Assembly (NCBI GenBank): GCA_938084055.1
Contig: CALKDK010000004.1
Location: forward strand, 1-64,000
Length of the DNA stretch: 64,000 nt
DNA from: an uncultured Luminiphilus sp.
GTDB taxonomy: Bacteria; Pseudomonadota; Gammaproteobacteria; Pseudomonadales; Halieaceae
Direction: 5' to 3'
Made by a program: the position numbers and the translations under genes. This document shows, piece by piece, positions 7,621 through 23,683 of the stretch. The notes under the pieces are model-generated. The model saw only the letters and a program-made list of their open reading frames with translations, did no database searches and had not been told where the DNA came from. Numbering within the stretch: position 1 is the stretch's first letter; every line of letters begins with the position of its first letter.

Positions 7621-9882
7621 TCACCAGTTATAACTCGCGCTCACGCCAATACGTCGAGAGGGAATAGGAAACTGGTTCGCATAGCCGGTGGGCTGACGTC
7701 TGACGACTGCCGTCGCTGGCGTGGCGGTTATAAGCGCCTCTTCATCCAGCAAATTGCGGGCAAACAGTTCCACATGCCACCGGTCACTGCGAACACCAAG
7801 ATAGGCATCGAGGGTGTTGTAGGCATCAAGCGGGACTTCACCCGAGTTCTGATTTCCCGTATAGGCCAACAAAACGCGCCCATAACCTTCCAGATTACCA
7901 AAGTTCCTTCGATACTCGCTGTTAACACTGGCTGACCAATCAGGAGCTCTGCCCAGCTGGTTGCTACTCTCGTCACACAGCGAGACTGACTCACCCTCGG
8001 GGAATACCGGCGCACCGTTGTCATCAAACTGGTTGCAGGGCAGCGCCGTCCCATCGGCGTACTCGCCCTCGCTGTAGCTGAGGGAGCCGCCGAGGTACCA
8101 GTTGGCAGTCAGGTTGGCGGACAGCTCCAATTCCGCTCCCCACACCTCGGCATCACCGTTGGTTGTGATGCCACTCCTGTCGATGCTCCCATCAGGATTC
8201 CTGATATTGAGTGCATTTTCACGGGAAATGTAGTCATCAAAATCATGAAAATACACCGCACCGTTCAGTCGTATGGCACCGTCAGCAAGCGTGCTTTTGA
8301 AACCGAGTTCGTATGACACGCTGTCCTCAGGGTCAAATAGCAATACGTCTTCAGGTAACGCAGAACCGGTGACCGTGACACCGCCAGGCCGCCATCCTGT
8401 ACTGACCACCCCATAGAGATTGATCTTATCGTCCAGCGCGTATTCGACCGCGAGCTGCCCAGTGAATGCGTCATCGTCGTAACGCTGATTGGCGGCGCTT
8501 ATGACCTGCTCAAGTAAAAACCCTGGGGGTGCCACACTGATTCCGTTGGGACCCGCGACCAGGGACATCTCCCTGTCGGTCCGAATCTCCTGGTAGCGAA
8601 GCCCTACCTGCACCGTCCACTGATCAGAAAGATAGAATTGGTTGTGGGTGAAAAGCCCCCACCGCTCAGCCTCAGCTGGAAAGAGCAATACCGTGCTGCC
8701 ACCCGCAAGTGGGCTAATGGGAATCTGGACATTCTCCTGACTGAAGAAGATGTCTGAATGTTCATAATAGGCACCCACCATATAATCCCATATTTCGCCG
8801 CCGTCACTGGCAAAGCGCAGCTCCTGGGACCAGTCAGTGCGATCATCAGTGGCAATGCGCCGGGCGGCATTATCCGGATTCGCGCTGCCCTGCGCCTGGT
8901 CGAATTCCCGCAGGGAATCGGTTTCATGATAGCCCGTCACCGCTGTTATCGTGTGTCCACCAAGCTCCCAGTTCAGCACCAATGAGGTATTCAAATAGTC
9001 GGAGTCCGTATTGTCTGATACCCCGTCAATACCTACCCGTGCATCGCGCCGATCGTAGGGGTCCAGCGGTACCAATACACCCTCAGGATCCAGGCGGGGA
9101 TCGCCCGTGGGAACGCCCGCCAGAACGCCCAAATCATCGAAGTCTCGCTCCAGGTACTGAGCTGCAAAATCTACGGTAAGCCGGTCAGTGGGTAGCCAGC
9201 TGAGGCTTATTCGACCGGCGGTGGTTTCCGAGCCGCTGACTTCTCCGGTGAGCTCGTTAGTAAGTTCGTCAAGCTCGCTGTCATCAAAAACCCCAGCAAG
9301 CCGAACCGCCAGCCTGCCGGGAACCAGGGGCACACTGACCGCCAATTGCGTATTGATACCGTCGTTGTCTGCCAAAGTCACACGCACCTCCCCTTCGAGC
9401 TCATCAAGATTAGGGCGCGCTGTGTGAATATTGATGGCGCCCGCTGGGGAGGTCCGTCCTGCAAGGGTACCCTGGGGCCCGCGCAATACTTCGATACGCT
9501 GTAGGTCGAAAAGCTGTTGGTATATAGCGTTGGAATCGACAATGGCCTGATTCCAGTAGGTCGTCACTGAGGCCTCGGCTGCGGAGTTGGGATTGTAGGT
9601 GATGCCCCGCAAGGTCATGCGCCCACTGCGGCCGGTAAAGCTGTCGATTTGCAAGCCGGCAGTCAGGGCTTCCAGATCCGTAAAATTAAACACATTGAAA
9701 TCCTTCAATGTGTCACCGCTGATAACGTTAACCGTTGCGGGTATGTCCTGGACTGACTCAAGCCGTTTCTGTGCCGTGACCACGACTTCTTCCAAGACAA
9801 GACTCTGGGCAGAACCTACGGTACCCCAAAGTGCCAAACACATTGCAGAGGTGAGAGCGGAGATATTTCGGTGATGACCCAT
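7621..9882 (-). CDS. TonB-dependent outer-membrane receptor
   Basis: 753 residues from ATG 9882; AAGGAAGG lies 7 bases upstream, which favours it over the TTG at 9888. Signal peptide about 1-26 (V-G-S-A-Q), then L-E-E-V-V-V-T-A-Q-K-R, the usual TonB-box/plug entry. The plug domain spans about 45-150 (V-L-R-G-P-Q-G-T-L-A-G). The remainder is a 22-strand barrel with repeated aromatic strand ends, closing in S-A-S-Y-N-W for outer-membrane assembly. It should take up a large or hydrophobic substrate using TonB energy. It is divergent from the DUF3604 operon. A 28-bp operator-like site 82 bases upstream is repeated in front of that operon, so they are probably co-regulated. The substrate cannot be read from sequence. 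Confidence 0.95.
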   Translation of the reverse strand: MGHHRNISALTSAMCLALWGTVGSAQSLVLEEVVVTAQKRLESVQDIPATVNVISGDTLKDFNVFNFTDLEALTAGLQIDSFTGRSGRMTLRGITYNPNSAAEASVTTYWNQAIVDSNAIYQQLFDLQRIEVLRGPQGTLAGRTSPAGAINIHTARPNLDELEGEVRVTLADNDGINTQLAVSVPLVPGRLAVRLAGVFDDSELDELTNELTGEVSGSETTAGRISLSWLPTDRLTVDFAAQYLERDFDDLGVLAGVPTGDPRLDPEGVLVPLDPYDRRDARVGIDGVSDNTDSDYLNTSLVLNWELGGHTITAVTGYHETDSLREFDQAQGSANPDNAARRIATDDRTDWSQELRFASDGGEIWDYMVGAYYEHSDIFFSQENVQIPISPLAGGSTVLLFPAEAERWGLFTHNQFYLSDQWTVQVGLRYQEIRTDREMSLVAGPNGISVAPPGFLLEQVISAANQRYDDDAFTGQLAVEYALDDKINLYGVVSTGWRPGGVTVTGSALPEDVLLFDPEDSVSYELGFKSTLADGAIRLNGAVYFHDFDDYISRENALNIRNPDGSIDRSGITTNGDAEVWGAELELSANLTANWYLGGSLSYSEGEYADGTALPCNQFDDNGAPVFPEGESVSLCDESSNQLGRAPDWSASVNSEYRRNFGNLEGYGRVLLAYTGNQNSGEVPLDAYNTLDAYLGVRSDRWHVELFARNLLDEEALITATPATAVVRRQPTGYANQFPIPSRRIGVSASYNW

Positions 9883-9963
9883 TGCCAAACCTTCCTTATC
9901 GTTATGTTTTGCCTGCCCGGACTTCTTCCAGCCAAAACTTTAATGACGAGAGGAACCAGCCTA

Positions 9964-9991
9964 GGAATCATTTTCGGACAATCTGCCCGAA
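9964..9991 (-). promoter_or_regulatory. Operator-like site 1 (TonB receptor)
   Basis: On the minus strand: TTCGGGCA, 3 nt, TGTCCGAA, then AATGATTCC. The two 8-bp arms are inverted repeats with one mismatch. The whole 28 bp matches site 2 at 24 positions, with three of the four differences in the spacer. It ends 82 bases before the receptor ATG. Confidence 0.7.
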
Positions 9992-10200
9992 TGACAGCAC
10001 GGATATTGAAACCCATACAGAAAACGGCCTGGTTACCCTGCTCCAGCCCCTCGACACCCCGGTCCACGCCAAACCAATCACCCTGCTAAATGCCGTGGCA
10101 GGCCTGCGGCCACGCCGCTGGCTACCCTGCACAAGGGGGCTACTGGCAACTGATGCGGGCTGCCGAGCCCGACTGACGGAGATGCGGGGTAAGGGTACAC

Positions 10201-10228
10201 TTCGGGCAATATGTCCGAAGATGATTCC
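10201..10228 (+). promoter_or_regulatory. Operator-like site 2 (DUF3604 operon)
   Basis: TTCGGGCA, 3 nt, TGTCCGAA, then GATGATTCC, oriented toward the operon start at 10378 (150 bases). Same sequence and orientation logic as site 1; a half-site also occurs at 20982-20998. Confidence 0.7.
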
Positions 10229-10377
10229 TCCGTCACCTCGCATGCGACCTATAGTAAGACGGTTAAGAATCCGAACTGGAGATGCCGGGGCAACCCTTCA
10301 ACAGCCTCCCTGGGCAACGGATTGGCTGTTACCGAGCGGGAATGAGCCAACTCCGCAGAAATATCGAGGGACAAGAG

Positions 10378-12435
10378 ATGCTTAAAAAAATTGGTCTGGG
10401 CATCCTGCTCCTGCTGGTGGCCATTTTTGCGCTGATCTGGATCAAAATAGTGGCGCCATTTCAGGCAGCCGCTGAGCGGTTTGGGCCCGAGGGCGCAGCC
10501 CGAGATTACGCCCTGCAGGACGACAGCAGGATAGTCCCGCCGCCACCCAGGGCAGCTACCATTCCAACTGCCCCCAACGCCAACGGAAACCTCTACTGGG
10601 GTGAGTTGCACCTGCACACCGCTGAGAGTTTCGACGCGTCTCTGTTTGGCACCACTCTGGGGGTTGAGGACGCCTACCGTTTTGCCAGGGGAGAAGCTTT
10701 GCAGGGGCCCGGTGGGGAAAAGATGCGACTGAGCCGACCCCTCGATTTCGTGGCCATTACAGACCATGCAGAAGGCTTCGGAACCCGTACCCACTGCGCT
10801 GATGAGGGCCTCTCCGTGCTGGAGCGCGCTGCCTGCTGGCTGGCCAATGAGCCCAATCCCTTTATTTTCAAGACGCTTGTTGGCCGGATTCGTGGTGAAG
10901 CTCCGCTCGGGGACGCTTCCAAACCCGCTGGGATCTACCAGAGAACAACGCGTCAGCCGCTCAAACCCGGGTCGTTCCCCACCTGTAGATTTGGTGAAGG
11001 AGCGCTGGAGAGATGCGTTCAAAATGCCCAGCGCGACTGGCAGCGTTATGTTGAACTCGCCGACCGCTACTATGAACCCGGCAAACTGACGACGCTGGTG
11101 GGCTATGAATTTTCGCCGAGCATGCCCAACATGGGTAAGCATCACCGCAACGTTATCTTTCGATCCAACGTCGTACCGAAGCGCGCCCTATCCAGTCTCG
11201 ATGTACCCAACGCTGTGGAGCTTTGGAAAGGCCTAGAAGCCACCTGTGGTGACAACTGCGATTTTCTGACGATCCCCCACAATTCCAACAAGGCCTGGGG
11301 TTTGACCTACTCGCGCTACACCTGGGACGGTCAGGAATACAGCGAAGCCGATTGGCGCCTGAGACAGGAGCGTGAGCCCCTGACGGAAATCTATCAGATC
11401 AAAGGTGCACAGGAGTGCGCCCTGGGGGTGGGCGCGACCGACGAGGAATGTGCATTTGGACAGGTGTTTGATCCCTGTGAACCCGGCGAAACAACAGGCT
11501 GCGCGTTCCAGACCGGCTTTGTCCGCCAGGGCCTCAAGATCGGACTGGCGTTGGACCAATCCCTGGGCTTTAACCCGCTACAGGTTGGCTTCATTGCCGC
11601 CACCGACAGCCACAACGCCAACCCCGGTGACGTCGAGGAATGGGACTTCCCCGGTGCGGTTGGCTCAGTAACATCCCCTGCCGTGCGACGACTGACCAGC
11701 ACTGAGACCGAGCCCTTCAAATCGCACCTACAGTTCCACACGCCGGGCGGCCTCGCCGCCGTGTGGGCACCCGAGAACACCCGGGAAGCCATTTTTGATG
11801 CCCTGGCCCGCCGGGAAAGTTATGCCACGTCGGGCCCACGCATTGCACTGCGCTTTTACGCGGGTAGGGGTAATGCCGGGGCTGACACCGCCACGTCAGA
11901 TTTATTGACCCATTTTGAAACCCATGGCGGCCCCATGGGATCGGTCCTCAATGCCCATTCAGCGCGCGAGGGCAAGGCTGATGCCAATGGAGAAGCACAT
12001 GCCACTATCCCCGAGTTCTTTGTCTGGGCCGCCAGTGACCCGCTGGATGCCCCGCTGCAGCGCATCCAGATGGTTAAAGGCTGGATTGATGACGCAGGCC
12101 AAACACATGAAAAGGTTGTTGACATCGCCTGCACTGACGGCCTGCAGGTAGACCCGGAAACAGGCCGATGTCCAAACAACGGCGCCCATGTTGATCTGGC
12201 CACCTGCCAGTTCAGCGAGGGCTCGGGTGCGACAGAGCTAAAAGCACTTTGGCGGGACCTGGACTACGCGGTTGATCAAACCGCTTTTTACTACGTACGA
12301 GTGCTGATGAACCCCACCTGCAGGTGGTCTACCTACGATGCCATCCGACTGGGGCGCACGCCGGACCCCCGTGTGCCGACAACGATCCAGGAGCGGGCAT
12401 GGAGCAGCCCCATCTGGCTAGATCCCAGGCACTGA
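10378..12435 (+). CDS. DUF3604 protein, PHP-like metal-dependent hydrolase fold, membrane-anchored
   Basis: 685 residues from ATG 10378; the 32 upstream in-frame codons lack a ribosome site, while GAGGGACAAGAG precedes this ATG. One N-terminal membrane anchor (residues 4-22) places the rest in the periplasm. PHP-type metal ligands are visible: H78 and H80 in G-E-L-H-L-H-T, D129-H130 in A-I-T-D-H-A-E, H in I-P-H-N-S-N, and D-S-H in A-A-T-D-S-H-N. DUF3604 is a widespread uncharacterised family; a hydrolytic role is inferred from the metal-site pattern. Several cysteines suggest disulfides. It is first in an operon with a paralogue and a Baeyer-Villiger monooxygenase, downstream of operator-like site 2. 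Confidence 0.88.
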   Translation: MLKKIGLGILLLLVAIFALIWIKIVAPFQAAAERFGPEGAARDYALQDDSRIVPPPPRAATIPTAPNANGNLYWGELHLHTAESFDASLFGTTLGVEDAYRFARGEALQGPGGEKMRLSRPLDFVAITDHAEGFGTRTHCADEGLSVLERAACWLANEPNPFIFKTLVGRIRGEAPLGDASKPAGIYQRTTRQPLKPGSFPTCRFGEGALERCVQNAQRDWQRYVELADRYYEPGKLTTLVGYEFSPSMPNMGKHHRNVIFRSNVVPKRALSSLDVPNAVELWKGLEATCGDNCDFLTIPHNSNKAWGLTYSRYTWDGQEYSEADWRLRQEREPLTEIYQIKGAQECALGVGATDEECAFGQVFDPCEPGETTGCAFQTGFVRQGLKIGLALDQSLGFNPLQVGFIAATDSHNANPGDVEEWDFPGAVGSVTSPAVRRLTSTETEPFKSHLQFHTPGGLAAVWAPENTREAIFDALARRESYATSGPRIALRFYAGRGNAGADTATSDLLTHFETHGGPMGSVLNAHSAREGKADANGEAHATIPEFFVWAASDPLDAPLQRIQMVKGWIDDAGQTHEKVVDIACTDGLQVDPETGRCPNNGAHVDLATCQFSEGSGATELKALWRDLDYAVDQTAFYYVRVLMNPTCRWSTYDAIRLGRTPDPRVPTTIQERAWSSPIWLDPRH

Positions 12436-12501
12436 TGCCAGGCTGCTATTGAAGACACACAAAGAAATTCCTAACCCCGCAGCGAGTGAGATATTGACCC
12501 C

Positions 12502-14544
12502 ATGAGCTATCGAGCCACGCTAATTGCTGTCCTCATGTTGCTGGTCGCCTGTTCCGACGAGCGCAACAGAGCTGAAAAGCGGCAAGCGGCACAGACGTAC
12601 TACCGCACAACCAATACGGTCATGCCGCCAACCACTGACATCATCACGTTTCCCGAAAAAGCCGAGGCAGACGATCCCCAACGCCCCGGCAACCCTGAAC
12701 GCAATGCCTACTTTGGTGACTTGCATGTGCACACAACGCTCTCCTTCGATGCCTCGGCATTCGGGACTACAGCCACACCCTCAGATGCCTATCGTTATGC
12801 CCGCGGCGAAGCCATCACCCACCCGGGTGGCTTTGAGGTACAGCTCGCGCAACCCCTGGATTTTTACGCCGTAACTGATCACGGGGTACTTCTGGGCCTC
12901 ATCAACGAAGCGGCGGACACCCGGACCCGATTTTCCCAGTACCCGGCCGCGGAGCCGTACCACGACATCAATAGCTCGGTCGATGGGGGCCTGCTGGACC
13001 TCAATAAGCGGAGCAAGGTCTTTGCCAACTTCATCAGCGACGTAGTTGCCAGCCTTCTGGATGGAACCTTGGGTGCAGCCGACATCAATAACGCCAGCCA
13101 ATCGGCCTGGGTAAAGACCGTTGAAGCGGCCAATGCAGCCTATGATCCCGGCCATTTCACGACCTTTGCCGGCTATGAGTTCACGTCCTCCACAGACCAG
13201 CGGGAAGCACTGCACCGCAACGTCATTTTCCGCAGCACCCATAAGTTACCGGCCCAGCCCTTCTCACGTTTCAACAGTATCAATCCAGAAGGCCTCTGGG
13301 ACTGGATGGACAGCTTGCGAGGCCAGGGTATAGAGAGCCTCGCCATACCGCACAACAGCAACGGATCGAACGGGGCGATGTTTGCATTTACAGATTGGTC
13401 CGGCACGCCCATGAATCACGAATATACCGAGCAGAGGCTGCGCAACGAGCCCCTGGTGGAAATTACCCAGGTGAAGGGCACCTCAGAGACACACCCCCTA
13501 CTGTCTAAAAATGACGAGTGGGCGGATTTTGAAATCTTTCCCCTGCGCACGTCTACACGCATAGACAGTAGTCCCCCCGGGAGCTATGTGCGTGACGCCT
13601 GGAAGCGCGGACTGGACCTCGCTGCACTGGGGGCCGGAAATCCTTTCAAATTTGGTGTCATCGGCTCCAGTGACACCCACACCGCGGCGGCCTCGGTTGA
13701 GGAAGACAACTACTTTGGCAAAATCGGCGCCTTTGATAGCACCCCGGATAAGCGCGGCTCCACCCCTGCGAGCTTCCCCTACGGCACCCTGGTCAAACTG
13801 GCGGCACCGGTGATGGTCGAAGAAGTCGATGGCAAAAACTATTATGACTTCTCGGGCTATAAGTACTGGGGGGCTTCCGGCATTGCCGGTGTGTGGGCTG
13901 AGAACAACACCCGCGAGGCCATTTACGCCGCGTTGCGCCGCAAAGAAACTTTTGCCACCAGCGGCACTCGAATCAAAATCCGATTCTTTGCTGGCTACCA
14001 CTTTGCCAATGAACCGCTGGACAACCCGGACCTGATTCGAGAAGCCTACCGATCAGGCGCTACTATGGGGGAAACCCTGCAGGCACAGGATACGCGAAGC
14101 CCCGGGTTTCTTGCCTGGGCAACGGCCGATCCCAACACGGCTCAACTGCAGCGGTTGCAGATCGTTAAAGGGTGGCTGGAGAATGGCGAGCACAGGGAAC
14201 AGGTCTTTGATGTAGCGTGTTCCGACGGCTTGAGTGTGAACCTACAGACACACCGCTGCCCCGACAATGGAGCCCGTGTCAGTCTGGACGATTGCGCCAT
14301 CACACCCGATAAAGGCGCCACCGAACTCAAGGTGCTCTGGCAAGATCCCGGTTTCAAGGCCGGTCAGGAGGCCTTCTACTATGCCCGGGCGCTGGAAAAT
14401 CCAGTTTGTCGCTGGTCCACCTGGGACGCCATCCGATCGGGCCAAGATCCGCGGTCAGATCTGCCCGCTACCATTCAGGAGCGCGCGTGGTCGTCACCCA
14501 TCTGGTACAGCACGGCCGACAACACCAACACTTTCATAGAGTAA
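12502..14544 (+). CDS. DUF3604 lipoprotein, PHP-like metal-dependent hydrolase fold
   Basis: 680 residues. The N-terminus is a lipoprotein signal with lipobox L-V-A-C (Cys17), so this paralogue is lipid-anchored while the preceding one has a membrane helix. Metal-ligand motifs recur: H75 and H77 in G-D-L-H-V-H-T, V-T-D-H-G near 126, I-P-H-N-S-N, and G-S-S-D-T-H-T. The C-terminal third, with conserved cysteines and E-R-A-W-S-S-P-I-W, is shared with the upstream copy, showing duplication. The gap to the upstream gene is 66 bases and only 7 to the next gene, so transcription is likely joint. The substrate is unknown; the context suggests a periplasmic step before cytoplasmic oxidation. Confidence 0.88.
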   Translation: MSYRATLIAVLMLLVACSDERNRAEKRQAAQTYYRTTNTVMPPTTDIITFPEKAEADDPQRPGNPERNAYFGDLHVHTTLSFDASAFGTTATPSDAYRYARGEAITHPGGFEVQLAQPLDFYAVTDHGVLLGLINEAADTRTRFSQYPAAEPYHDINSSVDGGLLDLNKRSKVFANFISDVVASLLDGTLGAADINNASQSAWVKTVEAANAAYDPGHFTTFAGYEFTSSTDQREALHRNVIFRSTHKLPAQPFSRFNSINPEGLWDWMDSLRGQGIESLAIPHNSNGSNGAMFAFTDWSGTPMNHEYTEQRLRNEPLVEITQVKGTSETHPLLSKNDEWADFEIFPLRTSTRIDSSPPGSYVRDAWKRGLDLAALGAGNPFKFGVIGSSDTHTAAASVEEDNYFGKIGAFDSTPDKRGSTPASFPYGTLVKLAAPVMVEEVDGKNYYDFSGYKYWGASGIAGVWAENNTREAIYAALRRKETFATSGTRIKIRFFAGYHFANEPLDNPDLIREAYRSGATMGETLQAQDTRSPGFLAWATADPNTAQLQRLQIVKGWLENGEHREQVFDVACSDGLSVNLQTHRCPDNGARVSLDDCAITPDKGATELKVLWQDPGFKAGQEAFYYARALENPVCRWSTWDAIRSGQDPRSDLPATIQERAWSSPIWYSTADNTNTFIE

Positions 14545-14551
14545 GAACCCC

Positions 14552-16006
14552 ATGCCGCGACAAATTGAATCAGTCGACGTACTTATTATCGGAGCCGGCC
14601 TCGCCGGTATTGGCGCTGCCTGCCAGTTGCGACGAAACTGCCCGGATCGTAGCTTTGCTATATTTGAAGCCCGCACCGTAAGCGGTGGCACATGGGACTT
14701 GTTTCGTTATCCGGGCATTCGCTCTGACAGCGATATGTATACCTACAGTTACGGCTTCAAACCCTGGCGTGATGCCTCTGCGATAGCCGATGGCGCAAAA
14801 ATTCTCCGGTACATTCGCGAGACGGCAGAAGAATACGATGTGGAGCGCCACATCCAATACCAACGCAAGGTTGTGGCTGCCAACTGGTCCTCCGAAGATC
14901 AACGCTGGCTGGTCACCGCCGAGTACGGCGATTCTGGTGAACAGGTTTGTATTAGTTGCCAATTTATATTCAGCTGCAGCGGGTATTACGACTACGATCA
15001 GGGCTACATCCCAGACTTCAATGGCGTGGGCGACTTCCAGGGGCAAATCGTCCATGCCCAGCACTGGCCCGATGACCTCGATTACCACGGCAAAAACATA
15101 GTCGTCGTAGGCAGTGGCGCTACCGCCGTGACCCTGGTGCCCACGATGTCAAAAGACACGGCCAGTCTGGTGATGCTGCAGCGCTCGCCCACCTATATTG
15201 CCGATGTGCCCCAGGAAGATCCTACGGCCCAGCGACTGCGCAGGTGGCTACCTGCGCTGTGGGCCTCCAAATTAACGCGCTGGAAAAAAGTGCTCTTCCA
15301 GATCTATCTTTACCGCCTATCGCGACGACGACCCAAGGCGTTACGTCGTTTCCTGATTGGCGAAGTCAAGAAGCAACTGGGGCCAGACTACGACGTAGCC
15401 ACCCACTTCACCCCCAACTACAACCCCTGGGACCAGCGACTGTGCGCAGTACCGGATGGCGATATGTTCACGGCCATCCGAGAGGGACGTGCAGACGTTG
15501 TAACTGATCATATTAGTCAATTTAACGAGACCGGCATTGAGCTCGCCTCCGGCAAACAACTCCATGCCGATATCGTCATCCTCGCTACAGGCCTGAATCT
15601 AAAATTTGCGGGCGGCGTGACCTACAGTATTGACGACACGAAACGTGACTTTACCGAACACTTTATCTACCGCGGCATGATGTTTTCAGATTTTCCCAAT
15701 ATGGCCTTCACCGTGGGCTACACCAACTCCTCCTGGACACTCAAAGCAGATCTTACCGCCCGCTACGTGTGTCGATTACTCAACAAAATGTCCAAAGGCG
15801 GTTACTCGGCGGTGACACCCCGTATGATTGGTGAAGTTCAGGAAGAGCCCCTACTTGATTTTGATGCCGGTTACGTCCTTCGGGCTAGAGAGCAGTTTCC
15901 CAAGCAGGGTGATCGAATGCCGTGGAAGAATTACCAGAACTACATACGCGATTTTATAGGTTTGCGGCTGGGAAGAATTCGGGATAAGGAGTTGGAGTTC
16001 AGCTAA
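14552..16006 (+). CDS. Flavin-containing Baeyer-Villiger-type monooxygenase
   Basis: 484 residues. The N-terminal FAD Rossmann motif G-A-G-L-A-G (about 14-20) is followed by the G-G-T-W-D-L-F-R-Y-P-G-I-R-S-D-S block. The Baeyer-Villiger fingerprint F-x-G-x-x-x-H-x-x-x-W-P is intact at residues 162-173. A second nucleotide-binding motif G-S-G-A-T-A (about 188) binds NADPH. The family inserts oxygen next to a ketone to give an ester or lactone, or hydroxylates soft heteroatoms. Length and motifs are full. It starts 7 bases after the DUF3604 stop, in the same operon. A ketone derived from a terpenoid, steroid or alicyclic substrate is plausible but not shown. Confidence 0.92.
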   Translation: MPRQIESVDVLIIGAGLAGIGAACQLRRNCPDRSFAIFEARTVSGGTWDLFRYPGIRSDSDMYTYSYGFKPWRDASAIADGAKILRYIRETAEEYDVERHIQYQRKVVAANWSSEDQRWLVTAEYGDSGEQVCISCQFIFSCSGYYDYDQGYIPDFNGVGDFQGQIVHAQHWPDDLDYHGKNIVVVGSGATAVTLVPTMSKDTASLVMLQRSPTYIADVPQEDPTAQRLRRWLPALWASKLTRWKKVLFQIYLYRLSRRRPKALRRFLIGEVKKQLGPDYDVATHFTPNYNPWDQRLCAVPDGDMFTAIREGRADVVTDHISQFNETGIELASGKQLHADIVILATGLNLKFAGGVTYSIDDTKRDFTEHFIYRGMMFSDFPNMAFTVGYTNSSWTLKADLTARYVCRLLNKMSKGGYSAVTPRMIGEVQEEPLLDFDAGYVLRAREQFPKQGDRMPWKNYQNYIRDFIGLRLGRIRDKELEFS

Positions 16007-16296
16007 CGATGGCTTTAATGTCGGCCTGGCACCATGCCGCAGAGGGCAGCCGACAAACTCGCCAGCCTGTCTTGACATAGATAATGCCAGTAATGATGTG
16101 TTTTCATACGCGGGAGCCCACCAACGAGTGGCCGGGCACCTCACGCTGCCCAGCGTACAGGTCAATCTTGAACAACAGGCGTCACCTGTTCATTCGATTA
16201 CCGGCGGTGACTCAATACAATGCAGGCAGCATAACCAAAGAAGGCTGATCATGACATGACCCGCCCAGCCCGGGACTCACAGAGGACGATGACCCT
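16007..16296. other. Intergenic region with a perfect inverted repeat
   Basis: 290 bases without a gene. AACAGG-CGTCA-CCTGTT at 16174-16190 is a perfect 6-bp-arm inverted repeat 107 bases before the next start, of a size that could bind a TetR- or GntR-type repressor. Confidence 0.45.
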
Positions 16297-17337
16297 ATGA
16301 AAAAGAAATTGTTGATCGTTATCGGCTTGGTCATTCTTGCCGTGGCTGCTCGAATGCTAGGCAATGTGCCCGCCATTCAGGACATGCTTGTTGAGCGGGG
16401 TACGACCGCAGTCGCCCGGCAGTCGGCCACGCCCCAGTCAGTGTCAGAGAGCTTGAACGTCTATGTATGCGGCAGTGCATCCCCTCTGGGGATGGGCCGG
16501 GCCCAAGCCTGTATTGCGATCTTAACGCCTGAACACTTTTATTTAATCGACTCTGGCGCAGGCTCCACAGACAATATCAATCGCTTGCGCCTGCCTACAA
16601 GTCGCCTGCAAGGCCTGCTGTTGACACACTTCCATTCAGACCATATCGCTGAGATTTACGAGGTGAACCTGGGCTCCTGGGTGAACGGTCGACCTGAACC
16701 GCTCAAAGTCTACGGCCCGACCGGTGTCGAAGAAATCGTGGAGGCAGTCAATGCCGGTTACCGCCTGGATCGAATCTACCGCGTGGGGCATCACGGTGCT
16801 GATTTGCTGGCACCCGAGACCGGTGTGCTGCAACACAGAATCCTCAATTCCGGAAGCACAATCGAAGACGGCGACCTGAAAATTACAGCCTACTCCGCAG
16901 AGCACCCACCCATTGAACCAGCCGTCGGGTACCGTATTGAGTATCGTGGCCGCAGCGTGGTCGTGTCAGGGGACAGCAATGTGACTGACCTGACGAAACA
17001 GGCGGTGGATGGGGCCGATCTGCTATTACACGACGCGCTGTCCCTCCCCGTAGTGAACACTCTCGCAACATCATTCCGGGAAGCCGGTCTGGCGCGGCAG
17101 GCTAAAATCATCACGGATGTTATTGATTACCATGCCTCAACTGACACACTTGTGACATTGGCGCAGGAATCCAACGTGGGAATGGTCGCCTATTATCATC
17201 TGGTACCCGTTCCACCCAGTGCCATTGTTGCCGATATGTTCCTGCGCGGCGCACCCGATAATATCGTGCTGACCGAGGACCTGATGTGGTTCGAGCTGCC
17301 TGTGGGCAGTCGAGATATCGTGGTCCACGAACCCTGA
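16297..17337 (+). CDS. Metallo-beta-lactamase-fold hydrolase, exported or membrane-anchored
   Basis: 346 residues with an N-terminal hydrophobic anchor or signal (5-22). The zinc-binding motif T-H-F-H-S-D-H occupies 110-116, and later ligands fit A-E-H-P, S-G-D-S-N and Y-Y-H. The pattern (no beta-lactamase-specific loops, V-V-S-G-D and a late H) is that of the RNase Z/arylsulfatase-like branch, which hydrolyses esters and phosphoesters. Lactone or ester cleavage after the Baeyer-Villiger step would suit the neighbourhood; that is inference. The 290-base upstream gap with an inverted repeat suggests its own promoter. Confidence 0.85.
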   Translation: MKKKLLIVIGLVILAVAARMLGNVPAIQDMLVERGTTAVARQSATPQSVSESLNVYVCGSASPLGMGRAQACIAILTPEHFYLIDSGAGSTDNINRLRLPTSRLQGLLLTHFHSDHIAEIYEVNLGSWVNGRPEPLKVYGPTGVEEIVEAVNAGYRLDRIYRVGHHGADLLAPETGVLQHRILNSGSTIEDGDLKITAYSAEHPPIEPAVGYRIEYRGRSVVVSGDSNVTDLTKQAVDGADLLLHDALSLPVVNTLATSFREAGLARQAKIITDVIDYHASTDTLVTLAQESNVGMVAYYHLVPVPPSAIVADMFLRGAPDNIVLTEDLMWFELPVGSRDIVVHEP

Positions 17338-17593
17338 CCCAGACAGTCGCCATCAGAGGGTAAAAATGCGTGGTAATGCGACCCTCGGTCTCGCCGGACG
17401 ATGGGATCCCCGTACCCACAGGACCAGGCGCCTCCGCTATGCTGGCAGGCGGATCCCTCTACCTCGAACCGGAGTGCTCGCCAAACCTTTCGCCCCGCGC
17501 CCCCGACACAATTGCGCCTGTCGCCTTCACCGGGGCCACCAGCCTTTGGCCCCAGACGCCGCGCGATCCAATGTCGGCAACACTTGGCTGGGA

Positions 17594-19387
17594 TCAGAAC
17601 GCACCCTCTGCCAGTGACATCAGGTTGTCCGCACCCGAGAGGATGCCCTCTTCACAAACAAGGGTCCGCGGCAGGATACGCTGGAAGTAGAACCGTGCTG
17701 TTGCCAGCTTGGCCTCGTAAAATTCTGGTTCTGAGGTACCCGATGCCAACGCGACCTGAGCGGTTGCCACCGCCCTGGCCCAGAAGTAGGCGAGGCTGGC
17801 GTAGCCTGAAAACATCAGGTAGTCCACGGAAGCGGCGCCCGCCTCGTCCGGATTCTCCATGGCCTTGGTACCAATATGCAGGGTAAGGTCCCCCCACTTT
17901 TTATTAAGTGACTGTAGCGGAGAAATAAATTCCTGCAGGGCGTCGTTGTCACTGTTTGCCTTACAGAACTGATGAATTTCTCGCGTGAAGTTCTTGAGCA
18001 ATTCGCCACCCGAGCCCAGCACTTTTCTCCCGATGAAGTCCAGCGCCTGAATCCCAGTGGTGCCCTCATAGATCATGGCAATGCGCGCATCGCGCACATT
18101 TTGTTCGACCCCCCATTCCTTGATGTAGCCGTGACCGCCAAAACATTGCAGCGCAAGATTGGCCGACTCAAAACCCGTCTCAGTAAGAAACGCCTTGGCA
18201 ATGGGTGTCATGAAGGAGAGCATGTCCTCGGCGGCCTTGCGTGCTTGCTCATCGGGACTGTGATCAATGATGTCAACGAGCTTACCCGTGTAGTAGATCA
18301 TCATGCGCCCACCCTCGGATAACGCTTTTTGCGTCAACAGCATGCGCCGGACGTCTGGGTGCACAATGATGGGATCAGCTGGGCCATCGGGGTTTTTAGG
18401 GCCTGTCACAGAGCGCATCTGAAGCCGATCTTTGGCGTAAGCCAATGATTTTTGGTAGCCCAGCTCCATGTGTCCCAGACCCTGCAACGCCGTGCCGATC
18501 CGCGCGGTATTCATGAAGGTGAACATAGCCTGTAAGCCCTGGTGGGGCTCCCCCAGCAAAAACGCCCTGGCGTTATCGAAATTCATGACGCAGGTGGCGT
18601 TGCCATGGATACCCATCTTATGCTCAATGGAGCCGCAGCGAACGCCGTTACGCTCGCCCATGGAACCATCGTCCCCAATATTGAATTTTGGAATGATGAA
18701 CAGGGAGATACCTTTGACCCCGGGTGGCGCATCGGGTAGCCGAGCAAGAACAATATGAACAATATTTTCGGTGAGGTCGTGTTCACCTGAAGAGATAAAG
18801 ATTTTTGTGCCCGTTACGCTGTAACTGCCGTCGGCATTGAGCTCTGCCTTGCTGCGCAACAGCCCCAGATCCGTTCCGCAATGGGCTTCAGTCAGGCACA
18901 TGGTGCCGGTCCAGGTCCCCTCCACCAGCTTGGTCAGGTAGTGATTCTTCTGAATGTCGGTACCATGGATTTTGATCGTATTGACGGCACCGTGGGACAG
19001 GCCCGGATACATGCCCCAGGCCCAATTGGCTGTACCCCTCATTTCAGCGAGGATCAGTGACAGGGATTCGGGCAGTCCCTGGCCGCCGTAAGCCGGATCA
19101 TTTGCCAGCGCGGGCCAACCCCCCTCCACATACTGCGCATAGGCCTCTTTAAAGCCGCTGGGCGTTGTGACTTCACCCGCCTTCCAGACACACCCCTCCT
19201 CATCACCGACAGCATTCAGGGGGGCCAAGATATTGGAACAGAACTTGTCAAACTCGTTGAGGATGGCGTTGGTGATGTCCGTGCTAACGTCCTCACACCC
19301 GGGCAGCGACTGGTAGTGACTATCGTAGTTGAATAATTCAAATATATTGAACTGAATATCCCGCAGGGGGGCCTTGTAGTTACTCAT
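17594..19387 (-). CDS. Large acyl-CoA dehydrogenase with C-terminal extension (DmdC/FadE5-type)
   Basis: 597 residues from ATG 19387 (GAGG 9 bases upstream); the TTG at 19390 is less likely. The order is N-terminal extension, ACAD N and middle domains (M-C-L-T-E-A-H-C-G-T-D-L around 165), flavin-binding C-terminal bundle with F-G-G-H-G-Y, and the catalytic-base region I-Y-E-G-T-T-G-I-Q-A-L-D. A further helical C-terminal domain of about 130 residues follows. The usual ACAD length is 380-400; about 600 marks the DmdC/FadE5 branch. These enzymes form alpha,beta-unsaturated acyl-CoAs, in DmdC from 3-methylmercaptopropionyl-CoA. The substrate here is not known. A weak operator-like half-site lies at 19594-19610. 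Confidence 0.92.
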   Translation of the reverse strand: MSNYKAPLRDIQFNIFELFNYDSHYQSLPGCEDVSTDITNAILNEFDKFCSNILAPLNAVGDEEGCVWKAGEVTTPSGFKEAYAQYVEGGWPALANDPAYGGQGLPESLSLILAEMRGTANWAWGMYPGLSHGAVNTIKIHGTDIQKNHYLTKLVEGTWTGTMCLTEAHCGTDLGLLRSKAELNADGSYSVTGTKIFISSGEHDLTENIVHIVLARLPDAPPGVKGISLFIIPKFNIGDDGSMGERNGVRCGSIEHKMGIHGNATCVMNFDNARAFLLGEPHQGLQAMFTFMNTARIGTALQGLGHMELGYQKSLAYAKDRLQMRSVTGPKNPDGPADPIIVHPDVRRMLLTQKALSEGGRMMIYYTGKLVDIIDHSPDEQARKAAEDMLSFMTPIAKAFLTETGFESANLALQCFGGHGYIKEWGVEQNVRDARIAMIYEGTTGIQALDFIGRKVLGSGGELLKNFTREIHQFCKANSDNDALQEFISPLQSLNKKWGDLTLHIGTKAMENPDEAGAASVDYLMFSGYASLAYFWARAVATAQVALASGTSEPEFYEAKLATARFYFQRILPRTLVCEEGILSGADNLMSLAEGAF

Positions 19388-19593
19388 CAACGATTACCTC
19401 AATTACTTGTGACATGATGCTCCTCGTGCCTGCAACTGTCGAACCAAATGGGGACCTGGCGGCGCATTGATCCGGCCAACCCTGCGAATAGGGCTGGCAT
19501 TCTTTCCTGATCTTCCGGGGACCACCACGACCCTTCGTTCGCCTTGGGTTTACAGTCCGATAGTGGACTGTACGGGCCCTGGCCCGTGACTGG

Positions 19594-19610
19594 AGAATCA
19601 TAATCGGCCA
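19594..19610 (-). promoter_or_regulatory. Degenerate operator-like half-site (acyl-CoA dehydrogenase)
   Basis: On the plus strand GAATCAT-2 nt-TCGG-1 nt-CA matches 13 of 17 positions of site 1 (9964-9980), in the orientation that faces the dehydrogenase 207 bases away. The second arm is poorly kept, so this is a weak candidate. Confidence 0.35.
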
Positions 19611-19717
19611 CAACAAGCCCGCCCACCCCTGCTGCCGCCGTAACCTCCGATCAGACTGGCAATAATGTGTTCCATGACCGTGGGCGCAGCTTTAGCAAAG
19701 CAGCATGCTCGACCAGA

Positions 19718-19741
19718 GGGTCCGCTGGGGGGAGCGGACCC
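19718..19741. other. Perfect 9-bp hairpin
   Basis: GGGTCCGCT and AGCGGACCC flank a six-G loop. There is no U-tract, so a classic terminator is doubtful; it lies between the ends of two minus-strand transcription units. Confidence 0.5.
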
Positions 19742-19890
19742 AAGGAAAACACCCCCGGACTCAAATTGGAACCGCAGGTGGGCGAGTTATCGGCAATTAA
19801 CAGGTCGGCAGCCCGCCTAACTCGGGGTTCAGCAGCACCAAACGATACCCGTCCCCCGCCTGGCTGCTGAATCGGTCGTTCTGTCTCGCG

Positions 19891-20937
19891 TCACTGCTGG
19901 GTTGGTGCTATCCGCGTAGAATAAAAACCCTGCCTTGCGTGCTTACTGCGATAGGCGCTGGGCGTTACATTATTCCAGCGCAAAAAGGCCCTGCGAAAAT
20001 TTACCGTCTCAGAATACTCGAGAAGATGGCCAATCTCGGCGATCGACAGGTCCGTTTTCATCAGGTACTCGCGAGCCAGTAAATCACGCACCTCCTCCAG
20101 CGTCGCCCTGAAGGATGTTGATTCTGATGCCAGATGCCGTCTCAATGTGCGCTCACTCATGTGCAGGCTATCCGCTACCCCCGCTATGCCCGGAAAGATC
20201 CCCGCAGACTGGATAAGAATACGACGAACTTCAGCCGTTGTTTTCTGTGCGCTTGCCAGGCCACGCAACATCTCCTCACATTGCTGGTGGAAGACCACAT
20301 GCTGGGAGGGGTCCGATGTCCTGATGGGTGTATCGAGCGCATGTGGAGGGAGATATAACTGACTGTATTGACAGTCAAACTCAAGGCCAAGGTTCATGGC
20401 GAATTTATAGAATGCCGAATGGGGGGGTCTCGGGTAGGCCAGATGAAGCTCCGCACCCTCGATCACTCCGCGGTATAGCGAACTGCCTACGACAACCAGC
20501 TGGGCAAAACACAACTCCGTAACCCGCCTCGTCTGCTCGGGGTCATCCTGCAACAACTGCAAGCGCAACAACAGACCACCGTTGTGCTCGTATGCTTTCC
20601 ACAGGGGCTGAAAAAATACCTCTCCATACCTCAGCAAAAGTGATGTTGACTCACGCAGGTTAGCGCAGGTCATCAGGGCGAAGCCAAAGGTGCCATAACT
20701 ATCTATCCCAACCCCACGCCCCAGGCGTATGGCAAGACAGGGATCACCTGTGATTTCCTCGGCGGTCTTCAGCAGAAGCACCGAATCAGACCCGTCAAAA
20801 ACGAGGTGACCTGATTCGGGGGGAGACCAACCCCGCGCGACCGCTTGAGTCATAAATTCCTCAGCGGTAATACCCGACTTCGCTACCTCGGCCAGCAACT
20901 GATTGAAGAGATCCCTCTGGAGTCGATTAGGTAGCAT
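19891..20937 (-). CDS. AraC-family transcriptional regulator
   Basis: 348 residues from ATG 20937, preceded by GGGAGTGGG; the longer in-frame start at 21015 would place the operator-like half-site inside the gene and lacks a ribosome site. The N-terminal two thirds fit the arabinose-binding-like domain of OruR/ArgR-type AraC proteins (P-L-W-K-A-Y-E-H near 120, P-H-S-A-F-Y-K-F). The last 100 residues hold two helix-turn-helix units (V-A-D-S-L-H-M-S-E-R-T-L-R-R-H-L and I-A-E-I-G-H-L-L-E-Y-S-E). It is divergent from an MFS gene, with a half-site of the repeated operator between them. It is the best candidate for the regulator of the 7621-22401 gene set. Confidence 0.92.
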   Translation of the reverse strand: MLPNRLQRDLFNQLLAEVAKSGITAEEFMTQAVARGWSPPESGHLVFDGSDSVLLLKTAEEITGDPCLAIRLGRGVGIDSYGTFGFALMTCANLRESTSLLLRYGEVFFQPLWKAYEHNGGLLLRLQLLQDDPEQTRRVTELCFAQLVVVGSSLYRGVIEGAELHLAYPRPPHSAFYKFAMNLGLEFDCQYSQLYLPPHALDTPIRTSDPSQHVVFHQQCEEMLRGLASAQKTTAEVRRILIQSAGIFPGIAGVADSLHMSERTLRRHLASESTSFRATLEEVRDLLAREYLMKTDLSIAEIGHLLEYSETVNFRRAFLRWNNVTPSAYRSKHARQGFYSTRIAPTQQ

Positions 20938-20981
20938 TTCCCACTCCCAAAAATCAGGTTGGCAACACCCACTACGCGATC

Positions 20982-20998
20982 TGGCCGAAAATGATTCG
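20982..20998 (+). promoter_or_regulatory. Operator-like half-site 3 (AraC / MFS divergent promoter)
   Basis: TGGCCGAA followed by AATGATTC matches the right half of sites 1 and 2 at 15 of 17 positions, in the orientation facing the MFS gene (107 bases), and is 45 bases upstream of the regulator's ATG. The left arm is not conserved. Confidence 0.6.
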
Positions 20999-21105
20999 GG
21001 TCTGCCTGTGTCCAATACTATACTCGTGCCAGACAGATTTTGGGAAAGAACGCGACAACATGAGCGATCTCACCGCCATAAAAACTCCGGCCCCCTGGGT
21101 CTCCT

Positions 21106-22401
21106 GTGGCTGACCAGACAGGCCAGCAGGCAAGCTACGGCATGGCCCCAGGGATAGGCCAGAGCCCACTGGCAGGCCACCGCATGACCCTCTCGCTACT
21201 CCTGCTCGCCTACACCCTGTCGATGTGTGACCGGATGATCCTGTCGATATTGTTTCCCGACATAAAGGCAGAGTTTGGCTTGAGTGACACCCAGCTGGGG
21301 TTACTGGGGGGTCTTTCCTTTGCGCTGTTTTACGCCACCATGGGGCTCCCGATTGCGAAGCTATCCGATCAATACAGCCGGAAGTGGATCATTATTGCGA
21401 GCCTGGTCATCTTCTCGCTGATGACCGCGCTGAGTGGACTGGCCGGCGGATTTATCAGCCTGCTGGTATTCAGAATTGCGGTGGGTGTGGGCGAGGCGGG
21501 CGTCAATCCAGCCAGTCACTCTATTATCTCTGATTACTTCCCACCCCAACGCCGGGCCTTCGCGATGGCCACGCTGATGTTGGGGGCAAGCCTGGGCATG
21601 ATGCTCGGTTTTGTCGGGGGCGGTTTCATTGCTGAGGCTTACAGCTGGCGGATTACCCTGGTATCCGTGGGACTCCCCGGTGTTCTTTTGGCCGTCTTTA
21701 TGGCAGTCCTGCTGCGGGAGCCAGTGAGGGGCACCTATGACCCGGAACCTCTGGAAAAGCCACCCGCCATCCTGACCACGGCCGTAACACTGTGGACCAG
21801 TGCTGCGATGCGCCACCTTTTTGCAGGCGCTATTGTGACCGGGATGATTGGATATGGGCTCACCCAGTGGTTGCCCGCCTTTTTCGTCCGAACCCATGGC
21901 TTGAGCCAGTCCGAGACCGGTATGTTGATGGCCGGCGTATTTGGCATCCTCGGTGCACTGGGGGCGCTCGCGGCCGGCAAGTGGTTCGATCGGCTCTCCG
22001 CTCGCGGTTTTCAACACGGCATGCGGATGCTGGCGCTCGTTCCGTTTGTCACCATGCCATTCTTTGTTTTTGGCCTGCTGGCCGAAGATCTGAAAACGGC
22101 GGTACTGCTGTTTATCATTCCCGGCTTCGCCGCCAACTACGTCATTGGTCCCACGATCGCGATGATACAGACCCTCTCGCCCCCGCACATGCGTGCCGTC
22201 GCATCCGCTCTGAAGATGTTGTGCCTGAACCTTATTGGTATGGGTCTGGGCCCGCTGCTCGTCGGCGTCCTGAGCGACCTGCTCACCCCCCATTACGGCG
22301 ACGATGCGCTCCGCCTGTCCCTGGCCTATTTTACGCTGGTGGGACTTTGGGGGTCCCTGCATTTCTGGCTCTGTAGCAGAGCCCTCGCGAAGCAACAGTG
22401 A
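21106..22401 (+). CDS. MFS transporter (spinster-like)
   Basis: 431 residues, twelve predicted membrane segments from about residue 26. The first cytoplasmic loop carries the MFS motif A form G-L-P-I-A-K-L-S-D-Q-Y-S-R-K. The third and fourth helices (G-V-G-E-A-G-V-N-P-A-S) match the spinster/organic-acid group. It would move a small organic molecule across the inner membrane. It is divergent from the AraC gene with an operator-like half-site between, so it is probably part of the same regulon as the TonB receptor. The exact start is uncertain; Met27 could also open the protein. Confidence 0.9.
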   Translation: MADQTGQQASYGMAPGIGQSPLAGHRMTLSLLLLAYTLSMCDRMILSILFPDIKAEFGLSDTQLGLLGGLSFALFYATMGLPIAKLSDQYSRKWIIIASLVIFSLMTALSGLAGGFISLLVFRIAVGVGEAGVNPASHSIISDYFPPQRRAFAMATLMLGASLGMMLGFVGGGFIAEAYSWRITLVSVGLPGVLLAVFMAVLLREPVRGTYDPEPLEKPPAILTTAVTLWTSAAMRHLFAGAIVTGMIGYGLTQWLPAFFVRTHGLSQSETGMLMAGVFGILGALGALAAGKWFDRLSARGFQHGMRMLALVPFVTMPFFVFGLLAEDLKTAVLLFIIPGFAANYVIGPTIAMIQTLSPPHMRAVASALKMLCLNLIGMGLGPLLVGVLSDLLTPHYGDDALRLSLAYFTLVGLWGSLHFWLCSRALAKQQ

Positions 22402-22534: not shown

Positions 22535-23683
22535 GTGAGCAATGGCGACCCTTCAGATCCCCGTTATCTGCTCTATGGCTCACAGGTTTCATATTACACG
22601 GTAAAGGTTCGTTCCTACCTGCGTTTCAAGGGACTGCAGTTTCAGCTGCTGAAGGTCACCAATCAAATTGCCGATGACATCATTAAGCCAGTCACCGGGG
22701 GCTGGCGCGTTGTTCCCATTTTGAGAACGCCCCAGGGCAAGTTTATTCAGGACAGCAGCGTCATTCTTGACCACCTCGAGCATGTCCACAGCACGCACTC
22801 CATAACGCCACCGGGTATCAAGCAGCGGGTGGCTTCCGCGCTGCTTGAATTACTCGGCGATGACTGGCTACTTTTTCCTGCGATGCATTACCGCTGGAAT
22901 TTTAAATATTACAATCTGATCTCGATTCTCAATGCCTTTGGCAATAATCGGACCCCGCACTGGCCCAAAGCGATTCGCTGGCTGGGGGGCGTGCCGGCCG
23001 CGCTGAAATTCGGAGGGGCCGCCAGCGCCATACTGGGAATCACCCCTGCGAACACAGCTGCGCTGGAAGCATGGACGGTGGAGCTACTCGATCAGTTGGA
23101 CCTGCATTTCTCGCAGCATGATTATCTGTTGGGCGGCAGGCCCTGCTATGGCGATTTTTCCCTGTACGGCCCACTGCAGGCTCATCTCGCTTCAGACCCT
23201 TATCCAAAAAAACACCTCATTGAACCCAGAAAAAATATTCAGGCATGGCTCCAGCGCATGGATAGCACCCCAACGTCGATCAGCAGATGGGTGCCCGACG
23301 ATGACATTCCCGAAACCCTGGTGCCCATTCTGCAGTGGCAGGTCCGGGATCAGCTTCCGTTCATACAGAAGGTCATCGAACACACGGCCGCATGGCTGGA
23401 CGACAACCCGGAGGCCAGTACCCTGCCCCGGTTTATTGGCAAGGCATCGTACGAAATTAAATCGGCTCGCGGTGACCGGGTATGCGCGCCGTACAGTCAA
23501 TGGATGTACCAGCGGGTGCATGGGCACTTTGCACGAGCATCCAGCCAGGCGCGTGACGAGCTCTTGCTTTGGTGCAGGGGACATGACATCCACATGGGTT
23601 TCGACGAACCTGATCAGCCGGTGGACTTCCGGCATTCCAGGGTATGTCGCGTGGGCACACATCAACCCACACCCGGGGGTTAG
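22535..23683 (+). CDS. Glutathione S-transferase-like protein with long C-terminal extension
   Basis: 382 residues from GTG 22535. The N-terminal 80 residues form a thioredoxin-fold GST domain (Y-L-L-Y-G-S-Q-V-S-Y-Y-T-V-K-V-R-S-Y-L; V-V-P-I at the cis-Pro; D-S-S-V-I at the glutathione contact). The helical domain (about 100-250) includes the N-capping-like segment Y-G-D-F-S. About 120 further residues have no known match in my reading; the total exceeds the usual 200-230. A glutathione-dependent conjugation or isomerisation is possible, but no thiol-type Cys is seen at the active position, where Ser or Tyr would act. It follows the MFS gene by 133 bases. Confidence 0.75.
   Translation: MSNGDPSDPRYLLYGSQVSYYTVKVRSYLRFKGLQFQLLKVTNQIADDIIKPVTGGWRVVPILRTPQGKFIQDSSVILDHLEHVHSTHSITPPGIKQRVASALLELLGDDWLLFPAMHYRWNFKYYNLISILNAFGNNRTPHWPKAIRWLGGVPAALKFGGAASAILGITPANTAALEAWTVELLDQLDLHFSQHDYLLGGRPCYGDFSLYGPLQAHLASDPYPKKHLIEPRKNIQAWLQRMDSTPTSISRWVPDDDIPETLVPILQWQVRDQLPFIQKVIEHTAAWLDDNPEASTLPRFIGKASYEIKSARGDRVCAPYSQWMYQRVHGHFARASSQARDELLLWCRGHDIHMGFDEPDQPVDFRHSRVCRVGTHQPTPGG

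Follow-up and report, generated by a model that had tools for sequence, protein, structure and literature searches.

Which operator joins the genes around an AraC-type regulator gene in an uncultured Luminiphilus sp. of the family Halieaceae, and what would it do there? The window analyzed here is a 64,000-nt stretch of DNA (positions 1 to 64,000 of contig CALKDK010000004.1, termed C4) from a draft genome of 2.92 Mb in 79 contigs, 82.75% complete. In it, a gene for an AraC/XylS-family regulator lies near genes for a TonB-dependent receptor, two DUF3604 proteins, a Baeyer-Villiger-type monooxygenase (BVMO), an acyl-CoA dehydrogenase and an MFS transporter. An earlier note, made from the letters of the window, had proposed that one AraC protein controls these genes through a 28-bp palindromic operator with half-sites elsewhere.

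We find that the conserved unit is an asymmetric 16-bp box, TGNCCGAAWATGATTC when read towards the gene, with a -10-like hexamer 21 or 22 nt further on. Very probably, the AraC protein binds one such box over the -35 place (class II) and activates four units. In the proposed mechanism, it would be a ligand-dependent transcription activator that recognizes the box abutting or overlapping -35 of a sigma-70-type promoter. The activated units would be the TonB receptor gene, the operon of DUF3604a, DUF3604b, BVMO and metallo-beta-lactamase (MBL)-fold hydrolase, the acyl-CoA dehydrogenase gene, and the MFS gene with a glutathione S-transferase-like (GST) gene, while the inducer would be a substrate or product of the pathway. 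We infer the binding, and activation rather than repression, from sequence comparison. The grouping of receptor, transporter, DUF3604/BVMO operon and dehydrogenase into one AraC regulon, as the earlier note had it, is supported by the box sites, the specificity of the composite of box and hexamer, and the co-occurrence of box and regulator. What emerges is a new and well-supported candidate AraC-type regulon with a redefined operator.

A 16-bp box at a fixed distance from the -10 hexamer

The DNA surrounding boxes and regulators was gathered from relatives, namely 140 genomes of the family with a wider draw of 293 genomes of the order, and the boxes were aligned in one orientation. The conserved part of this alignment is the 16-bp unit; C directly follows it in 51 of 72 sites. 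The 72-site set includes the window's own four sites, where the spacing was first noticed, and five sites from two contigs (L045 and L046, the same contigs as those of G385) of a genome outside the family. It omits seven sites in seven loci (L094, L101, L105 and L108-L111), which lie inside frames or have no labelled gene nearby.

In agreement with the earlier note, the two window boxes between the TonB receptor gene and the DUF3604 operon differ over 28 bp by one T/C exchange and three spacer bases, and each is oriented to its nearer gene. They lie 83 bp before the start of the TonB match and 151 bp before that of the DUF3604a match. The other two had been described in the note as a half-site between the AraC and MFS genes and a weak site before the dehydrogenase gene. 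Both exist, but as full 16-bp sites, each with a -10 hexamer; the searched 16-bp pattern matches the former as minus-strand GAATCATTTTCGGCCA with 1 of 16 positions mismatched, and the latter as plus-strand GAATCATAATCGGCCA with 3 of 16 mismatched.

With up to 3 mismatches, this pattern has five matches in the window as compared with 0.51 in shuffles, and none of 100 shuffles reaches five. The uniform-base expectation per 11-kb stretch is 0.0035, for a pattern that came from this very window. When no more than 1 mismatch is allowed, the draft genome as a whole has six matches, of which four belong to this cluster. The fifth window match, at 46156, lies inside a 422-aa frame. Together with box-like places on contigs C10, C19, C23, C30 and C59, it was not counted as a regulon member, because all six, which differ by 1 or 2 mismatches from the pattern with two free positions, have no -10 hexamer at 21/22 nt and lie inside frames of at least 100 aa. 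Once the hexamer is required, as in the composite CCGANNATGATTC-N21/22-TANNNT, four matches are left in the draft genome, all in this cluster, and the expectation that sites are confined to the cluster genes holds there.

The fixed spacing, which the earlier note had missed, is the strongest evidence for the mechanism. By an approximate -10 scoring matrix, 54 of 72 sites have their best hexamer within 60 nt at a distance of 21 or 22 nt, as compared with 2 of 72 on the opposite side of the box. The count is 47/61 in the non-redundant set, 50/68 without the window's own sites, and 55/79 with the seven omitted sites, of which one has its best hexamer at 21 nt. When downstream DNA was shuffled (200 trials), the best hexamer falls at 20-23 nt in 4.7 sites on average and 11 at most, as compared with 55 observed. 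Outside this set, 11 more sites were examined, of which ten come from G206, a member of another family, and the eleventh from an additional contig of G385. Six of the 11 pass the strict -10 count, and offset 21 ranks first of 59 when best-of-two scores are averaged (z 4.0).

A box that ends 21 or 22 nt before -10 reaches, for a standard spacer of 17 bp, into the -35 place with its last 1-2 bases, and no -35 consensus was seen after the box in the aligned sites. A site at or over -35 at a constant distance from -10 is the geometry of class II activation. A constant -10 distance and a single orientation would likewise be seen if the box were a promoter element of an alternative sigma factor and not an activator site. 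This is highly improbable, as the -10 hexamer is like the ordinary TAtaaT, a -35 element of 16 bp would be long, and the box co-occurs with an AraC gene.

Tandem direct half-sites about 21 bp apart are common in the AraC/XylS family, without defining it. Here, only 3 of the 76 non-redundant sites have a direct copy 22 bp away that agrees in 10 or more of 16 bases. A second direct half-site at -22 was at first reached by 0 of 300 shuffles, but three sites account for this; once they are removed, an inverted position at -31 comes out best, and 28 of 300 shuffles reach it. Since the signal rests on those three sites, no second half-site is claimed.

The 28-bp operator would need a second, inverted arm. 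The two window sites between the receptor and the operon have the arm TGCCCGAA in common at 8/8 positions, but 74 of the 76 non-redundant sites match it at 4/8 or fewer, boxes 3 and 4 of the window are without it, and the columns to the left of the box are nearly uninformative, with at most 0.41 bits (A at -4, A/G at -3). A palindromic dimer operator of the TetR-like kind has both arms conserved across sites, and such conservation was not found among the 76 sites. A palindrome with half-sites elsewhere is therefore quite unlikely, its second arm being missing from every other site examined. The genome scan that the earlier note had proposed for the 28-bp pattern, performed on the draft genome with the inner 26 bp and up to 3 mismatches, returns only the two reported sites. 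Because the arm is not conserved, we regard a single asymmetric 16-bp box as the best description of the operator, and the inverted arms are probably not part of it.

Possibly, the common arm stems from a local inverted duplication; the inverted pair at 9963-9991 and 10201-10229 is 29 nt long and 86% complementary. Arms of 29 nt separated by 209 nt could also be the terminal inverted repeats of a small mobile element (9963-10229). We rejected this reading, whose probability is negligible, as the 28-bp pattern has no other copies in the draft genome, the box stands singly before different genes in relatives, and no target duplication was seen in the flanks.

At the dehydrogenase promoter, the -10 hexamer lies within an arm of an 8-bp inverted repeat (19551-19572 in the window) that reads TACAGTCC-gatagt-GGACTGTA and could be a further control point.

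Company of the box and the regulator across genomes

The regulator has the C-terminal pair of helix-turn-helix (HTH) segments of AraC/XylS proteins (HTH_18, E 2.6e-17, residues 255-331), both strongly conserved among its orthologues, and an N-terminal effector and dimerization domain (Arabinose_bd, PF12625, E 2.2e-19). Its structure model has a mean pLDDT of 62.6, and the N-terminal part alone was used because residues 207-348 are mostly below 50.

An orthologue, defined by at least 50% identity, is present in 15 of the 140 family genomes, including HTCC2080 and Litorirhabdus singularis IMCC14734; two of the 15 are contig-end fragments. The threshold was set after the identities had been inspected, and scoring covered at most 15 candidates per genome. 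Two relatives below it, in G118 (41%) and G081 (36%), are in genomes without an exact box. The exact box is present in 14 genomes among the 15 with an orthologue, as against 7 among the remaining 125 (Fisher p = 2.5e-13), so site and regulator are kept together in related genomes, as the earlier note had anticipated.

The reversed pattern served as a control in box and composite searches. The exact box has 46 matches in 21 of 140 genomes, the reversed one being found in 0 of 140, and with 1 mismatch allowed the 15 orthologue genomes hold 79 matches versus 6 for the control. The composite has 50 matches in 21 of 140 genomes versus 0 for the control. Of these 50, 42 belong to 14 of the orthologue genomes and eight to seven further genomes, three with the exact box (G085, G117 and G124) and four without it. 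In G021, G063, G084 and G128, the exact boxes are inside reading frames.

Of the 293 genomes drawn from the order, an exact box is present in 15, a reversed-control match in six, and a regulator relative at E 1e-70 or better in nine. Eleven of the 15 exact-box genomes are outside the family. Two of them, G206 and G385 of family f47, carry six and five boxes with two and three regulator copies, respectively; the other nine have one box each, which is close to the control level.

A different regulator could read the box, with the AraC gene as a fellow traveller. Boxes in three genomes without a detected orthologue, and paralogues near the same box, both described below, would be explained by it. 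It is unlikely, as co-occurrence is tight over the 140 genomes (counted for the AraC gene only) and in 16 of 83 cases the box stands immediately upstream of a gene for an AraC homologue.

Several observations weigh against binding and activation by the AraC protein at a single box. G027 has the regulator (54%), but neither a box within 1 mismatch nor the composite. Conversely, G085, G117 and G124 (80, 89 and 99% complete) have boxes before TonB, DUF3604 or dehydrogenase homologues with no orthologue at the threshold among the candidates scored, up to 15 per genome. The composite is also present in orthologue-free G006, G009, G089 and G090 without the exact box, where it may be due to chance. 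More distant regulator relatives (40-42%; G178, G328 and G347) come without an exact box; in G178, a box with 2 mismatches adjoins the regulator gene. L092 (G028:C30) and L118 (G059:C24) show another DUF3604/BVMO/MFS cluster, in which the AraC paralogue has 42-44% identity and a similar box is nearby, so box and regulator do not pair off exclusively; an operator may be common to paralogous regulators. Directly downstream of 44 of 83 boxes there is no homologue of any of 13 window proteins, and five of the 11 further sites fail the strict -10 count. Finally, AraC-family activators usually use two half-sites, whereas a clear second direct one is seen at the three sites mentioned above only.

Genes of the cluster and a possible pathway

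The gene directly downstream of the 83 boxes is a homologue of the TonB receptor in 13 cases, DUF3604a in 8, the MFS transporter in 8, DUF3604b in 6 and the dehydrogenase in 3; one box precedes a distant AraC gene (25% identity). The 16 boxes upstream of AraC homologues (one only 25% identical) all point away from them, so the regulator gene is not the one that the box faces, though overlap may affect it. In the window, box 4 points to the MFS gene, but it adjoins the AraC gene, being 45 bp upstream of the start codon, so that the AraC protein may regulate its own gene through it. Features of the cluster are collected in Table 1.

Table 1 Features of the candidate regulon in the window, with the basis of each assignment.
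Feature	Position	Strand	Remark
Activator box 1	9965..9980	-	TGTCCGAAAATGATTC, read towards TonB receptor gene
Activator box 2	10212..10227	+	TGTCCGAAGATGATTC, read towards DUF3604 operon
Activator box 3	19595..19610	-	TGGCCGATTATGATTC, read towards acyl-CoA dehydrogenase gene
Activator box 4	20982..20997	+	TGGCCGAAAATGATTC, read towards MFS gene
-10-like hexamer TAAAGT	9937..9942	-	22 nt after box 1
-10-like hexamer TATAGT	10250..10255	+	22 nt after box 2
-10-like hexamer TACAGT	19567..19572	-	22 nt after box 3
-10-like hexamer TATACT	21019..21024	+	21 nt after box 4
Inverted arm beside box 1	9984..9991	+	TGCCCGAA; not conserved in relatives
Inverted arm beside box 2	10201..10208	-	TGCCCGAA; not conserved in relatives
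AraC/XylS-family regulator	19891..20937	-	N-terminal Arabinose_bd domain and HTH_18; domain search
TonB-dependent receptor	7621..9882	-	domain search
DUF3604 protein a	10378..12435	+	domain search
DUF3604 protein b	12502..14544	+	domain search
Baeyer-Villiger-type flavin monooxygenase	14552..16006	+	domain search, both fingerprints
Metallo-beta-lactamase-fold hydrolase	16297..17337	+	domain search, HxHxDH
Acyl-CoA dehydrogenase with Acyl-CoA_dh_C domain	17594..19387	-	domain search
MFS transporter	21106..22401	+	domain search
Glutathione S-transferase-like protein	22535..23683	+	domain search

The monooxygenase has both BVMO fingerprints, FxGxxxHxxxW[PD] as FQGQIVHAQHWP at 162 and [AG]GxWxxxx[FY]P[GM]xxxD as GGTWDLFRYPGIRSD at 45. 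With both present, the cluster enzymes are compatible with a ketone-type substrate, and BVMO, TonB receptor, MFS transporter, hydrolase, GST and acyl-CoA dehydrogenase together make uptake and oxidation of an alcohol- or ketone-type compound plausible. One report, on North Sea Gammaproteobacteria, proposes that BVMOs take part in aliphatic degradation in other clades (PMC8371827). The GST gene probably belongs to the MFS operon, and the MFS/GST adjacency recurs in L117.

Invariant H, D and E motifs appear in the alignment of DUF3604 proteins (GDLHVHT, VTDH, PHN and SDTH), and to us they look like those of PHP-type metal-dependent hydrolases. For the DUF3604b model (mean pLDDT 62.7), Foldseek gave no match below E 0.001, and the sole mention of DUF3604 in the accessible portions of the literature searched is apparently unrelated. 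The box sequence, in four spellings, was not found in that literature. In the stretch that separates the MFS promoter from its gene, an 18-codon frame (17 residues and a stop) at 21060-21113 extends over the GTG start (21106). Since the N-termini of the MFS frames differ in the three relatives examined, this frame could either encode a leader or have arisen by chance.

Twenty box-near proteins were scanned in relatives, not all confirmed as the first gene after the box. They include a pyrroloquinoline quinone (PQQ)-type alcohol dehydrogenase, acetoacetate decarboxylase-like, DJ-1-like, mandelate racemase/enolase-like and DsbA-like proteins, a sulfatase, a metal-dependent hydrolase, a serine beta-lactamase-fold protein, a short-chain dehydrogenase, an enoyl-CoA hydratase and AMP-binding proteins.

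The box, 21 or 22 nt and the -10 hexamer make a precise, searchable switch that joins genes of unknown function, chiefly of the DUF3604 family, across a marine family of bacteria, and any gene after it becomes a candidate for the same pathway. In relatives, the PQQ-type, acetoacetate-decarboxylase-like and enolase-like genes are also near the unit. More tentatively, and with rather more doubt than trust, we conceive that an AraC-type regulator of full length, ligand-type domain included, could work from a single box instead of a pair. Box and -10 hexamer would then be a short, portable unit that came to stand in front of many operons of Halieaceae and of a neighbouring family, and the regulon so built around DUF3604 would define an undescribed marine route for an alcohol or ketone substrate.

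Similar regulators and their operators

The top three NCBIfam matches of the regulator are QhpR (138.1 bits), CypR (122 bits) and GliR (102 bits). These scores are far below the curated cut-offs (250, 500 and 570 bits, respectively), so the regulator is none of the three. Among solved structures, CdpR of Pseudomonas (PDB 5chh) is the best match by both sequence E-value and Foldseek E-value, the Foldseek alignment having 23% identity and a root-mean-square deviation of 19.2.

VirS of mycobacteria, from a different phylum and pathway, has an N-terminal fold similar to that of the regulator by Foldseek (TMt 0.74); the matching structures are PDB 8rcx by sequence and 8rcw by fold. VirS is reported to control an adjoining operon with the Baeyer-Villiger monooxygenase MymA (PMC13234193).

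CphR of Rhodococcus, an AraC-type activator, drives a monooxygenase operon, as the regulator here is predicted to do (PMC6205950). Of its binding motifs, the one near the promoter shares two bases with the -35 hexamer, which is the geometry proposed for the 16-bp box. CphR uses two 15-bp direct repeats, TGCA-N6-GGNTA, whereas one conserved 16-bp box of another sequence is found here.

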